Positions 161 to 35,160 of a stretch of 35,320 bases of DNA are shown here, piece after piece. The position numbers were made by a program, and so were the translations under genes. Origin of the DNA: a virus; the IMG/VR virus record IMGVR_UViG_3300025127_000115, positions 1 to 35,320 of that record. One strand, 5' to 3'. Within the stretch, counting starts at the first letter, position 1, and every line of letters starts with the position of its first letter. The notes under the pieces were generated by a model. It searched no databases, was not told where the DNA came from, and saw nothing but the letters and a program-made list of their open reading frames with translations.

Positions 161-389
161 CAGCAGGTGTTCCTTCTCAGTCCAACCCGATACCTACCTT
201 GGGGTAACACTCCAAGTGGCGATGCCGTGCTAATTAATACGCACCATGAGAGCAGGAAGTGGTAACGCAGGATTCCAATAGGAGACTTAGACGACGTATC
301 AAGGGGGACATAAGATTGTAAAGCGACCACACGAAGTGGCGGTCTCAAGTCCGCATAAACGCTGAGAGCAATCAACAACAACTATTATT
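1..389 (+). other. non-coding leader before the first early gene
   Basis: I see no convincing gene here: the open frames lack plausible ATG starts and leaders. The stretch has several local hairpins: GCAC-UUCG-GUGC (101-112), CTTGG...CCAAG (about 199-215), and GACC/CAC-GAA-GTG/GGTC (about 325-344). It ends in the G-free leader caatcaacaacaactattatt (369-389) before the ATG at 390. It is probably the 5' untranslated region of the early transcript or a structured RNA. No sigma70-type promoter stands out. Confidence 0.5.
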
Positions 390-656
390 ATGGATAAATT
401 ACCTACAGTTAAATCAATCTTGAATACACCATCCATCTTTGATGGCTATACATTTGAGGACATGGTCACATTCGGACGTGTAAATGCCGAACAAGCAACA
501 TCCACCTGCATGATTAATGCTCAGGTAGATTACATGAAAAATCATGGATGGGCGGACATGGAAAACGTAGAGGGGTTCTTAAAAGCATGGTCGAAGCTTG
601 AATCACAGGTTCGCCGTAAATTTAACGAGGCGGAGGAAATCGCATCAATCCTTTAA
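390..656 (+). CDS. hypothetical protein, 88 aa, first early gene
   Basis: I do not recognise the family. The product is soluble, helix-rich and mildly acidic, with no membrane segment or signal peptide. The ATG at 390 follows a 21-base G-free leader and has no Shine-Dalgarno site, the same start context as the next genes. The gene is followed within a few bases by its own intrinsic terminator (662-690), so it is a single-gene transcription unit or one of a series of partially terminated cistrons. Its position directly after the leader suggests very early expression, possibly a host-takeover protein; that role is inference from position only. Confidence 0.75.
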   Translation: MDKLPTVKSILNTPSIFDGYTFEDMVTFGRVNAEQATSTCMINAQVDYMKNHGWADMENVEGFLKAWSKLESQVRRKFNEAEEIASIL

Positions 657-661
657 CGAAC

Positions 662-690
662 AGCTCGCACTTCACAGGTGCGGGCTTTTT
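662..690 (+). terminator. intrinsic terminator after the 88-aa gene
   Basis: A 9-bp stem AGCTCGCAC / GTGCGGGCT (662-670 with 678-686, one G-U pair) is closed by a 7-base loop and followed by TTTTT (686-690). It lies immediately after the stop codon of the gene at 390-656 and directly upstream of the hairpin at 696-710. Confidence 0.8.
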
Positions 691-739
691 GGGTAGAAGC
701 ATACTGCTTCCAATCAACAACAATCAACAATATATTATT
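691..739 (+). promoter_or_regulatory. GGGTA-hairpin plus G-free leader, copy 1
   Basis: GGGTA (691-695) is followed by a hairpin GAAGCA-tac-TGCTTC (696-710) and then 29 bases with no G (711-739), rich in CAA and TTA, up to the ATG at 740. The same arrangement with a different stem sequence lies at 1003-1047, and a larger version at 8586-8670. The compensatory change in the stems suggests the RNA hairpin is functional, for example in transcript 5'-end stability or translation control. Confidence 0.55.
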
Positions 740-967
740 ATGATACTAAATTCATTAGGCACAGCCATGAAAAATCTTCCAGAAACTATCGTGAACATCA
801 ACTCAAAAGATGACAGCCATGATAGCAGACGGGTAAAGTCCGACCTTATCGAATACGCTATTGAAACTCTATTGCAAGAGTACATGAAGACCCTTAAGGA
901 CACCGATGATGGTCGAGAAGCACTAAAGGCAAAGCTCCTTCTGCACAAACTATCCAAGGACTTGTAA
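740..967 (+). CDS. hypothetical protein, 75 aa
   Basis: I do not recognise the family. I chose the ATG at 740 because it directly follows the G-free leader 711-739. An internal ATG ten codons in is a weaker alternative. The product is charged, with a long probable helix through LIEYAIETLLQEYMKTL and a Lys-rich C-terminus, and no membrane segment. It is bracketed by intrinsic terminators (662-690 and 974-1002), so it is a stand-alone cassette. Confidence 0.7.
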   Translation: MILNSLGTAMKNLPETIVNINSKDDSHDSRRVKSDLIEYAIETLLQEYMKTLKDTDDGREALKAKLLLHKLSKDL

Positions 968-973
968 AACCAC

Positions 974-1002
974 AGCTCCCGCTCAAAAGGCGGGGGCTTT
1001 TT
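974..1002 (+). terminator. intrinsic terminator after the 75-aa gene
   Basis: A 9-bp stem AGCTCCCGC / GCGGGGGCT (974-982 with 990-998, one G-U pair), 7-base loop, then TTTTT (998-1002). It starts a few bases after the stop codon at 967. Confidence 0.8.
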
Positions 1003-1047
1003 GGGTAGATGCAGGTCGCATCAAACAACAACAAATAAATACATATT
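1003..1047 (+). promoter_or_regulatory. GGGTA-hairpin plus G-free leader, copy 2
   Basis: GGGTA (1003-1007), then hairpin GATGC-aggtc-GCATC (1008-1022), then a G-free stretch up to the ATG at 1048. It matches copy 1 (691-739) in layout and in the closing G-C and A-T pairs, but the inner stem differs with pairing kept. Confidence 0.55.
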
Positions 1048-1254
1048 ATGAAAAACGAAATCACACTCACCGACAGGTCAGAAATAAACGAGATATTCAA
1101 GAGACATCTTGGCATGAAGGTCAGCTTGACTGATGACCAATGGAAGCAAGTAGAGGACTCCATACATAATGACGATGAATTGTGGGGTTATGTCTATGAT
1201 TCTATAAACAAAGCTGTATCTGATTTAACTGAGCCTCTTATAAAAACATTATAA
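1048..1254 (+). CDS. hypothetical protein, 68 aa
   Basis: I do not recognise the family. It is a small soluble protein with Lys, Asp and Glu spread throughout and a probable helix through SEINEIFKRHLG. The ATG follows a 25-base or longer G-free leader with no Shine-Dalgarno site. The next gene starts 26 bases after its stop, again behind a G-free leader, with no terminator between them, so the two are probably cotranscribed. Confidence 0.7.
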   Translation: MKNEITLTDRSEINEIFKRHLGMKVSLTDDQWKQVEDSIHNDDELWGYVYDSINKAVSDLTEPLIKTL

Positions 1255-1280
1255 ACAACAACAATCAACAATACATTATT

Positions 1281-1559
1281 ATGACATTTGAATACATAAC
1301 ATTCGGAATCATCGACAATCTAGTAATGATTATCGGTGCAATGACAGGCTACGAGGTTGAGAGATACCTTCCTAAGTCCCTTCAGAAGGGGCTAGGAGCT
1401 GTCATAGGGGCAGGGCTAGGCAATGCCACTAGTGACTGGCTTGGAGGCTTCGTAGCAGGCAACCTCAGCATGGCAAACGGCACAGCAGTCGGATGCATCA
1501 TCGGTCTGGGTTTCATCCCAGTAATTCTTCTCATCAGCAACTTACGCAACAACAAATAA
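1281..1559 (+). CDS. small glycine-rich membrane protein, 92 aa
   Basis: The product has a hydrophobic start (ITFGIIDNLVMIIGAMTG), a central Gly/Ala-rich segment (LGAVIGAGLGNATSDWLGG) and a hydrophobic C-terminal helix (CIIGLGFIPVILLISNL) ending in a short basic tail. That pattern suggests two or three membrane segments with glycine-zipper packing. No signal-peptide cleavage site is clear. It has the size and topology of a holin or of a membrane protein acting on the host envelope, but its early position argues against a simple holin. The start is fixed by the G-free leader at 1255-1280. Function is not known to me. Confidence 0.75.
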   Translation: MTFEYITFGIIDNLVMIIGAMTGYEVERYLPKSLQKGLGAVIGAGLGNATSDWLGGFVAGNLSMANGTAVGCIIGLGFIPVILLISNLRNNK

Positions 1560-2930: not shown

Positions 2931-3120
2931 TTACTGCAACATATGCGATACACGCAGACCCGAAGGTGGCACACAGCACCTCGTTCTTAACGGAGGTTCT
3001 CTATGGCTTGAGTACTGCAAGTCATGTGGGGAATCAGAAACCCTAACTAACCCATCAACTGGGGAGGTTAAAACCATAGCGGAGGTAGCCAAGCAAGCCA
3101 GAGAAACATCAACCGCTTAA
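2923..3120 (+). CDS. small zinc-ribbon-like protein, 65 aa
   Basis: Cys5-x2-Cys8 and Cys32-x2-Cys35 form two knuckles of the kind that bind one structural zinc in zinc ribbons. The segment between them reads as two beta strands around a GG turn. The C-terminus is a short helix (IAEVAKQARE). Such small zinc ribbons often bind nucleic acid or proteins; the target here is unknown. The ATG overlaps the end of the upstream gene. Its stop is followed directly by the CTTAAGATGG stem-loop region. Confidence 0.7.
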   Translation: MSDYCNICDTRRPEGGTQHLVLNGGSLWLEYCKSCGESETLTNPSTGEVKTIAEVAKQARETSTA

Positions 3121-3210
3121 CCATCTTAAGGCTATCAATCTTAAGGCTGTCTTTCCCTCCCTTCAAGGGGAGGGGGATGGCTTTCTTAAGATGGGGCTGT
3201 CTTAAGATGG
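3121..3210 (+). promoter_or_regulatory. CTTAAGATGG stem-loop with two competing 3' arms
   Basis: CCATCTTAAG (3121-3130) can pair perfectly with CTTAAGATGG at 3185-3194 or with the identical copy at 3201-3210. Inside lies a second hairpin, CCCTCCC-ttcaag-GGGAGGG (3155-3174). The same 11-mer CTTAAGATGGG occurs in the right-end non-coding region at 34515. The two interchangeable arms would suit an RNA switch or a protein-binding site. No T run follows either arm. Confidence 0.55.
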
Positions 3211-4692: not shown

Positions 4693-4724
4693 GGTGGGTC
4701 ATCTTAAATGGTGACTCACCTTTT
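4693..4724 (+). terminator. intrinsic terminator between early blocks
   Basis: Stem GGTGGGTCA / TGACTCACC (4693-4701 with 4712-4720, one G-U pair), loop tcttaaatgg, then TTTT (4721-4724). The nuclease ATG at 4735 lies just ten bases after the T run, so that gene needs read-through or a nearby start of transcription. The loop contains a variant of the CTTAAGATGG motif. Confidence 0.65.
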
Positions 4725-8585: not shown

Positions 8586-8670
8586 GGTAGAATGCTTGTC
8601 CTTTATAATCCTGTAAGGGGCAAGTATTCACTATATGACTAATAATAACAACACAACACACAGCAACGTA
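8586..8670 (+). promoter_or_regulatory. GGTA-hairpin plus CA-rich leader, copy 3
   Basis: GGTA (8586-8589) is followed by a 12-bp stem, GAATGCTTGTCC (8590-8601) with GGGCAAGTATTC (8618-8629), with two G-U pairs and a 16-base loop. A CA-rich, G-poor leader (actatatgactaataataa...cagcaacgta) then leads to ATG 8671. The layout repeats that at 691-739 and 1003-1047. The loop contains TATAAT (8604-8609) but no -35 is evident. Confidence 0.5.
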
Positions 8671-8841
8671 ATGAACAAAACAATCCTTGAAGCAACCGAA
8701 GTCTCCCTCTCAATCTACAATGAGATTGATAGCTACCAGCTACCAGAAGAGACTCGTGTTAAACATAAGGCTTTGGGTCAGGTTCTTCGTTCGTTGGTAG
8801 AAATACTTGACAAACATGAACAATCTAAAGCAACCGCATAG
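8671..8841 (+). CDS. hypothetical protein, 56 aa
   Basis: I do not recognise the family. The first ATG is at 8635, but the 12 residues it would add (MTNNNNTTHSNV) are low-complexity and come from sequence that looks like the CA-rich leaders of this genome. ATG 8671 (MNKTILEATEV) is therefore preferred; the alternative is 68 aa. The product is a helical, charged protein (TRVKHKALGQVLRSLVEILDKHEQ). It overlaps the helicase gene, which starts at 8816. A helicase-loader role is possible from position alone and is only a guess. Confidence 0.55.
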   Translation: MNKTILEATEVSLSIYNEIDSYQLPEETRVKHKALGQVLRSLVEILDKHEQSKATA

Positions 8842-34296: not shown

Positions 34297-34380
34297 GATT
34301 CGTACTGTTGTGACTCAGTCTCATTAAGTCAATACTTATATTATTATTATTGAGACTCCGTCTCATTAAGGAATAAATAA

Positions 34381-34419
34381 TACCATGGGACTTGACGAGT
34401 GAAACCCATGTGGTACAAT
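34381..34419 (+). promoter_or_regulatory. sigma70-like promoter inside a hairpin
   Basis: TTGACG (34392-34397), 16-bp spacer, TACAAT (34414-34419). The -35 is in the loop of an inverted repeat TACCATGGG (34382 region) / CCCATGTGGTA. Transcription would run rightward into the non-coding region, toward the circle join and the early genes. Confidence 0.45.
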
Positions 34420-34514
34420 ATGTACATCTTAAGATAGCCAAGCCATAAGGGACTAATAAGTTAGCGTAGCGAAATAAAAGGAATCCTAAGATTGACCACG
34501 GTTGGACTGACAGC

Positions 34515-34524
34515 CTTAAGATGG
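34515..34524. repeat. CTTAAGATGG motif, right-end copy
   Basis: The same 10-mer as at 3185-3194 and 3201-3210, here flanked by GACAGC and GCTGAG. It also pairs in part with the ATCTTAAGAT palindrome at 34426-34435. The motif occurs only in the non-coding stretches I checked. Confidence 0.6.
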
Positions 34525-34680
34525 GCTGAGCCCAATAGCCCCTTGAGTGAGGTATTTTTTTAAGGGGTGGTATATGAAACAGGGAAACTGCAAAGTTACG
34601 GACTTTCGACCGCCCCCACCCGTCTGTTGCGGTTGGCTCTATTGCGACTGAGTCTCATCTTAGGGGAAACCCTTAGCTTG

Positions 34681-34712
34681 TAAGGTTAACAGGTAATGAC
34701 CTTATTTTATTT
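34681..34712 (+). terminator. terminator-like hairpin in the right-end region
   Basis: TAAGGT (34681-34686) and ACCTTA (34699-34704) form a 6-bp stem with a 12-base loop, followed by TTTTATTT. The stem is short and A/T-rich, so the call is weak. Confidence 0.4.
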
Positions 34713-34831
34713 CCTCTGAAGGGAAGATGGGTTATTCACCCCACATTATTATATATCACCTCACGTGAGTACTATTGAGACATGTGTCTCATTAAGGGGG
34801 GATTTAGGGTTGAGACTGGGGCTGAGTTGGT

Positions 34832-34997
34832 GCTATGCAATTTTAATGCAACTTGCTATGCAATTTAATGCAACTAAAAATGGCGAAATTGGCTGTATGC
34901 TCCTTGAATGATTCGCGAGGGGGAGAGGTCGCCTCGAATCAAAGACGGCTTCTAGGGGCATTTATGGCTCACTACGGGCTATGCAATTTAATGCAAC
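34832..34997. repeat. three iterons GCTATGCAATTTAATGCAAC
   Basis: Copies: 34832-34852 (with one extra T in the T run), 34855-34874 and 34978-34997. Each has two ATGCAA units in direct repeat. Downstream, the shorter TGCATTGAA or GTGCAT units recur (about 35030-35078). Between copies 2 and 3 lies the hairpin GATTCGCGAGG / CCTCGAATC (34910-34920 with 34932-34940). The dense array of related sites looks like an origin bound by an initiator or repressor. Confidence 0.65.
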
Positions 34998-35160
34998 CGT
35001 ACTGATAATCAACGACTTACGTAACTAAATAGTGCATAGGTGTGCATTGAAATGAGGTGTGTGCATTGAATGTGCATGAAAATTAAGCAAATGAAGGTAG
35101 TTTCATTATTTTGTTTTTCTATCGGAAAATCACTAGTTTTGAATGTGGGTCATTTTTTGC

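Follow-up and report, generated by a model that had tools for sequence, protein, structure and literature searches.

A repeated stem-loop, hairpin and leader module as a putative boundary between small gene cassettes in a group of uncultured phages

We describe a repeated RNA module that lies between consecutive small genes in the early region of an uncultured marine phage and its relatives, and we propose that it is a boundary between gene cassettes. From the stop codon of one gene to the AUG of the next, the module consists of a spacer (mostly 5-12 nt), a variable terminator-like stem-loop, UUUYU, GGGU, a variable short hairpin and a leader. Taken as a whole, including the RNA-end and exchange steps that we infer, this reading is the best explanation of our observations, and we put its probability at roughly 0.58.

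Results

The window, by which we mean the whole stretch of DNA that was analysed, is a virus record of 35,320 nt with an end repeat of ~160 nt in nearly identical copies. Its early block, with genes running rightward from position 390, encodes a cell-wall hydrolase, an exonuclease, an endonuclease VII, an Erf-like annealing protein and a DnaB helicase; the structural genes run leftward, and the late block encodes a tail tape measure-like protein, the major head protein and the large terminase. No near-identical DNA was found for the window among named phages, and no module was found in C75C1, the closest named phage by capsid. Both modules of the window sit among the first small genes, in the A/B and B/C gaps (numbers with L are our handles for sequences compared with the window):

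174..311, + strand: RAGATH-24-like structured RNA at the array head (Rfam RF03049, 40.4 bits, E 2.7e-5; cut-off 45.3)
315..372, + strand: putative twister-P1-like ribozyme abutting the gene A leader (Rfam RF03160, 51.5 bits, E 8e-9; cut-off 67.2)
373..389, + strand: gene A leader, G-free by sequence
390..656, + strand: gene A (88 aa), first cassette, no known family; its relatives in L195 and L092 sit behind a module
662..690, + strand: module 1 terminator-like stem-loop (662-686) and U5 tract to 690
691..695, + strand: module 1 GGGTA linker
696..710, + strand: module 1 5' hairpin, GAAGCA-TAC-TGCTTC
711..739, + strand: module 1 leader, G-free and without Shine-Dalgarno; ATG at 740
740..967, + strand: gene B (75 aa), cassette gene
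974..1002, + strand: module 2 terminator-like stem-loop (974-998) and U5 tract to 1002
1003..1007, + strand: module 2 GGGTA linker
1008..1022, + strand: module 2 5' hairpin, GATGC-AGGTC-GCATC
1023..1047, + strand: module 2 leader, G-free; ATG at 1048
1048..1254, + strand: gene C (68 aa), cassette gene
1255..1280, + strand: leader alone, without terminator or hairpin, 5' of gene D
1281..1559, + strand: gene D (92 aa), membrane protein, weakly TMEM65-like; a full module lies 5' of it in L004, L087, L097, L107 and L191
1569..1943, + strand: gene E; L004 has an extra cassette gene between D and E, at the leader
8586..8630, + strand: long hairpin (CTTG..CAAG), conserved in many marine phages, 5' of the small gene that precedes dnaB; not a module copy

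The earlier note on this DNA had described the order terminator, GGGTA, hairpin, G-free leader and ATG at 662-740 and 974-1048, which is indeed present, and the same element was found in many other phage contigs. Against shuffled sequence, RNA folding gave z = -6.1 for module 1 and z = -5.8 for module 2. Rfam at curated thresholds returned no match in the whole window, and at 659-740 and 971-1048 no family covered the module even in the sensitive mode. Elsewhere in the window, repeated CATCTTAAG/CTTAAG palindromes surround terminator-like stems at 3121-3200, 4700-4722 and 34425-34530 and are possible regulator sites; operator-like inverted repeats TGAGAC-N-GTCTCATTAAG recur near the start of the leftward genes (34310-34800); and three ATGCAATTTAATGCAAC-like repeats, possible origin iterons, lie in a region without genes (34840-35000).

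A third copy had been proposed at 8586-8671 as a variant lacking the terminator. The sequence exists, but it is a separate conserved hairpin (8590-8629) that has an 18-bp stem of -24 kcal/mol, lacks a terminator and shows covariation of its own (98.5% of its cells are paired and 5 pairs altered on both sides). The 'GGTA' at this site is not conserved, and the hairpin is kept in dnaB relatives at 64-72% identity, including relatives in which no module was found. In the flanks of 79 further dnaB relatives, most of which stop short of the array region, no module match rose above noise.

Copies in related phages

A pattern made from the two window copies led to 24 contigs, ~20 of them with the full module and several with more than one; a covariance model built on 21 copies added many more within those contigs and, once three further pattern scans had been run, in dozens of others. 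The search required the left side and the core but, apart from the first scan, left the right arm of the hairpin unconstrained; the invariance of GGC-UUU-GGGT is therefore partly ascertainment, since the core was part of the search patterns and of the scoring rule. An independent rule, a terminator stem adjoining GC-UUU..GGGT, puts the number of distinct copies at 222, made up of 206 standard ones and 16 of an end type that has UUUUUUGGUAGACAAGGCUACG. The 206 lie mostly in fragments of related uncultured phages and include a handful of chance or distant matches; for later counts we kept the 175 that are also flanked on either side by a recognisable gene. The array contigs belong to the phage group of the window (identity up to 88% for the terminase, 81% for the portal-like protein, 75% for the exonuclease and 79% for Erf), and many loci carry three to eight consecutive copies, ~300 nt apart, with one small ORF per module (median of array genes, 75 codons).

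A scan of genome contigs with the core gave 26 matches, all in a context unlike the module and attributed to chance, as were many viral-contig matches to the 14-base core. At the last boundary of some arrays we observed a special sequence, CTTTTTTGGTAGACAAGGCTACGTTTTTTNGTAGC, with a double terminator-like or switching structure (L086 2429, L094 rc 2609, L106 rc 2552, L195 rc 2185, L287 rc 6337, L303 rc 2505 and L324 5284), after which several carry AACGAGACTGCGC repeats.

Pairing and leader

Every scored module has a GC-rich stem-loop with a U tract, terminator-like by sequence; among the 175, the tract is UUUUU in 115 and the interrupted UUUCU in 52, about a third. Across both stems of the module, all 14 pairs are kept in 293 of 293 cells and seven are altered on both sides. 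In 25 copies without selection on the right arm, 120 of 125 cells are paired, and two pairs swap type. A second hairpin of at least 5 bp stands at the expected place in 174 of the 206 modules (mean in shuffles, 20), and the exceptions include many longer hairpins with interruptions. Loop and stem sequences vary freely while pairing is kept; a comparison of G-U with A-C asymmetry in the hairpin gave no informative signal. There are two main classes, GGGUA-GANGS..SCNUC, in which all four Watson-Crick pairs are seen at position 3, and GGGU-GUAAGC..GCUUAC. The GA..TC closing pairs that had been taken as a common feature are thus typical of one class, whereas the larger class closes with GTAAGC/GCTTAC. 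Covariation had also been claimed for the hairpin stems; both stems do covary across copies, although the original argument leaned partly on the unrelated third hairpin.

The leader is 25-30 nt long, A/C-rich and without a Shine-Dalgarno sequence: its G content is 0.3 per 20 nt, an SD-like 4-mer occurs in one of 130 leaders and A stands at -3 in 139 of 140. Most start codons lie 39-55 nt downstream of GGGU. Leaders also stand alone directly after a stop codon between closely spaced genes, in polycistrons (e.g. window 1255-1280). Some leaders in L089, L097, L116, L294, L298, L308, L309 and L333 hold a second hairpin, TGCGCC..GGCGCG, directly 5' of AACCAATACAAATATG.

Other RNAs in the same position

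The array of the window is headed by the RAGATH-24-like and twister-P1-like RNAs, both found in the sensitive mode of Rfam. At the same place in relatives the RAGATH-24 match reaches 85.6 bits, and the position and fold of the twister-P1-like RNA at 315-372 are conserved in relatives: in 20 of the 25 records with arrays there is exactly one twister-P1 match, in every case below the curated cut-off. One or both RNAs were matched at the array head in 17 of 20 loci scanned; in the remaining three, no more than a few hundred bases separate the start of the array from the end of the available sequence.

Within arrays the position of the hairpin can be taken by other RNAs. The slot between stop codon and leader is filled in L092 by a type II hammerhead that scores above its cut-off; judged from the usual hammerhead cleavage position, its product would start with a hairpin, followed by the leader. 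In L191 a 67-nt tmRNA-acceptor-like RNA (rc 3085-3151) follows the terminator and replaces the hairpin, and in L094, L106, L172, L258 and L324 such an RNA is placed after the last boundary. Most of these RNAs have a G3:U70 pair and an encoded CCA, with the leader immediately 3'. Twister, type II hammerhead and tmRNA-TLS RNAs thus all abut the same type of leader as the module hairpin.

The 67-nt RNAs comprise the tmRNA acceptor (tRNA-like) domain only, without the mRNA part, yet score above the Rfam tmRNA cut-off (also at L172 1550-1616, L106 6951-7017(-), L094 2559-2625(-), L258 9182-9248, L324 5403-5469 and L095 10052-10119), and they are possible mini-tmRNA mimics. A further structured RNA of ~120 nt, GACGGACAGGG...GAGTCCGTCC, lies between terminator and leader in L172 (from ~515), L106 (rc from ~615) and L333; its fold z is -4.8, and no Rfam family matched it.

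Shuffling of the cassettes

Genes adjoining the module fall into 118 families, and 180 junctions give 166 distinct neighbour pairs. Where the same upstream gene is followed by different downstream genes, 14.6% of comparisons have identical terminators (baseline 1.4%) and 0.8% have identical hairpins (baseline 0.5%). For junctions that share the downstream gene, the corresponding values are 4.5% for terminators and 3.7% for hairpins, over baselines of 1.4% and 0.5%; kinship of the phages inflates the permutation results. The first of these figures indicates that a terminator moves together with its upstream gene; hairpin and downstream gene are less tightly linked. Between the window and L004, the flanks of which are 96-98% identical, gene order changes from A-B-C-D-E to A-X-D-Y-E, and the insertions and replacements start at leaders. 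With hundreds of copies, covariation in both stems and genes shuffled within the array, the suggestion of a repeated RNA module in an early gene cassette system is borne out.

In the 25 array-bearing records, many of them fragments, neither a tyrosine recombinase (PF00589, 0 matches; controls positive 14/14) nor a resolvase (controls positive) was found. Since an exonuclease and Erf are present and no integrase or resolvase was detected, homologous recombination over the short shared cores would be the simplest route of cassette exchange.

Discussion

The main reason for reading the module as an RNA boundary is positional: RNAs able to make ends by different means share the place of the hairpin. 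We propose that transcription of the array starts at its head and partly reads through weak terminators, and that new RNA ends would arise in or beside the UUUYU-GGGU linker. The upstream mRNA would thereby receive a protective 3' stem-loop, and the downstream mRNA would begin with the hairpin, followed by an unstructured leader on which ribosomes could load without Shine-Dalgarno pairing. A twister, a hammerhead or a tmRNA-acceptor-like RNA in the same slot could each create an RNA end directly. The core GGGC-UUUYU-GGGU would offer a short homology over which the phage exonuclease and the Erf-type annealing protein could exchange cassettes. Counted against the cassette-boundary reading are the twister matches of the window and its relatives, which lie below the Rfam cut-off, the UUUCU tract of about a third of modules, the partial ascertainment of the core, the weak tie between hairpin and downstream gene, and the inflation of the permutation results by kinship.

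The earlier note had offered two functions, protection of the 5' end of processed mRNA and the marking of start sites. The former is probably the best reading, on positional evidence, because ribozymes and tRNA-like RNAs take up this position ahead of leaders of the same kind; that one slot is shared across RNA kinds suggests a shared way to obtain separate messages from one transcript. A bolder version, which we hold tentatively and consider somewhat doubtful, is that the slot is a general site of RNA punctuation, with an interchangeable end-forming element (twister, hammerhead, mini-tmRNA acceptor or the UUUYU-GGGU hairpin) ahead of every cassette gene, and that the GGGU hairpin is a new cleavage or nuclease-recruiting motif that would cut the array transcript into monocistronic, end-protected mRNAs.

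The marking of transcription start sites is unsupported, since no promoter signal was found around the module. In 161 modules, sigma-70-like promoter scores were no better than in shuffles (at least 9/12 matches: 1 vs 9) and the Bacteroidetes-type promoter TTTG/TAnnTTTG occurred in none. This bears on the view that the transcript stops at the stem-loop and that a promoter in the module restarts the mRNA at GGGU or just 5' of the gene, in the manner of the promoter-early stem-loops (PeSLs) of T4-like phages, whose terminator-then-gene order and cassette shuffling it matches; GGG is, moreover, a usual start for some polymerases. Upstream of GGGU, however, only the terminator-stem block GGGC-UUUYU is strongly conserved, lone leaders follow stop codons directly in polycistrons, and a search for a T7-like polymerase, the positive control of which gave no match either, found none; we judge such a restart unlikely. 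With a terminator in every gap of a collinear array, the distal genes would otherwise be cut off, and a hairpin of 5 bp with a 5-nt loop lies directly 5' of each gene, which would suit a regulatory RNA site, that is, a nut/put-like antitermination signal or an attenuator letting polymerase past the next terminator. Yet loops and stems vary freely, no boxA-like conserved block exists apart from GGGU, the boxA and boxB with conserved loop of a lambda-type nut site were not found, and no alternative pairing between the two stem-loops was seen, so that we regard this account as rather improbable.

The extremely shuffled gene order, with joints at the module, would also be expected of a DNA recombination site, integron-like or of another site-specific system, with RNA structure secondary. 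We consider this very unlikely: the tyrosine recombinase acting on attC that defines integron gene cassettes was missing, like resolvases, from the 25 partly fragmentary records, and the distances of stop codon, leader and start codon are fixed, which a pure DNA site would not need. Ordinary terminators with chance hairpins might be entertained for the window, which holds only two copies, but the hundreds of copies elsewhere with pairing kept, the fully paired cells and the excess of hairpins over shuffles refute chance, and its probability is negligible.

The closest known system is the PeSL, reportedly a small intergenic cassette of a terminator stem-loop and a strong sigma-70-like promoter. 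PeSLs are repeated between non-essential small genes and are linked to modular shuffling. By comparison, the module likewise has a terminator-like stem-loop between genes and is repeated among shuffled small genes; it acts like a PeSL in shuffling and terminator, yet is separate. It is not a PeSL because the promoter is missing, and it has a second hairpin and an SD-less leader, in arrays headed by ribozyme-type RNA. In mitochondrial tRNA punctuation, structured RNA between genes sets the mRNA ends, whereas here several kinds of RNA would share the putative role, with processing as the proposed step.

Hammerhead ribozymes flank phage-type genes, for example around ardA in Agrobacterium (PMC3088659), and there too self-cleaving RNAs lie between small accessory genes of phage origin; only ribozymes are found there, while here the usual occupant of the slot is a non-catalytic-looking hairpin module. 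The SAS and ESAS of Cluster K mycobacteriophages are repeats that lie just 5' of the start codon in many small genes, inverted repeats being present in about half; the SAS is a 13-bp repeat that carries the Shine-Dalgarno core AGGAG where the ribosome binds, and RNA pairing is not supported by the ESAS repeats (PMC3203893). The module resembles them as a repeated element upstream of small phage gene starts. In contrast to them, it lacks the Shine-Dalgarno sequence and keeps its pairing by covariation, and whereas an ESAS stays with its gene family, the module arrays have shuffled gene order. Initiation regions in Bacteroidetes and Flavobacterium are SD-independent and Kozak-like, A-rich with A at -3 and no SD (PMC6847099); the module leaders share the A at -3, the richness in A and the lack of SD.

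If the cassette-boundary reading is true, it would provide a concrete rule for plugging new small genes into a phage array, such that each is expressed whatever its neighbours and without a promoter per gene. It would also give a testable role, the making and protecting of mRNA ends, to the many ribozymes and tRNA-like RNAs near phage genes, the purpose of which has so far been open. Furthermore, searching metagenomes for the boundary could bring to light arrays of unknown early phage genes.
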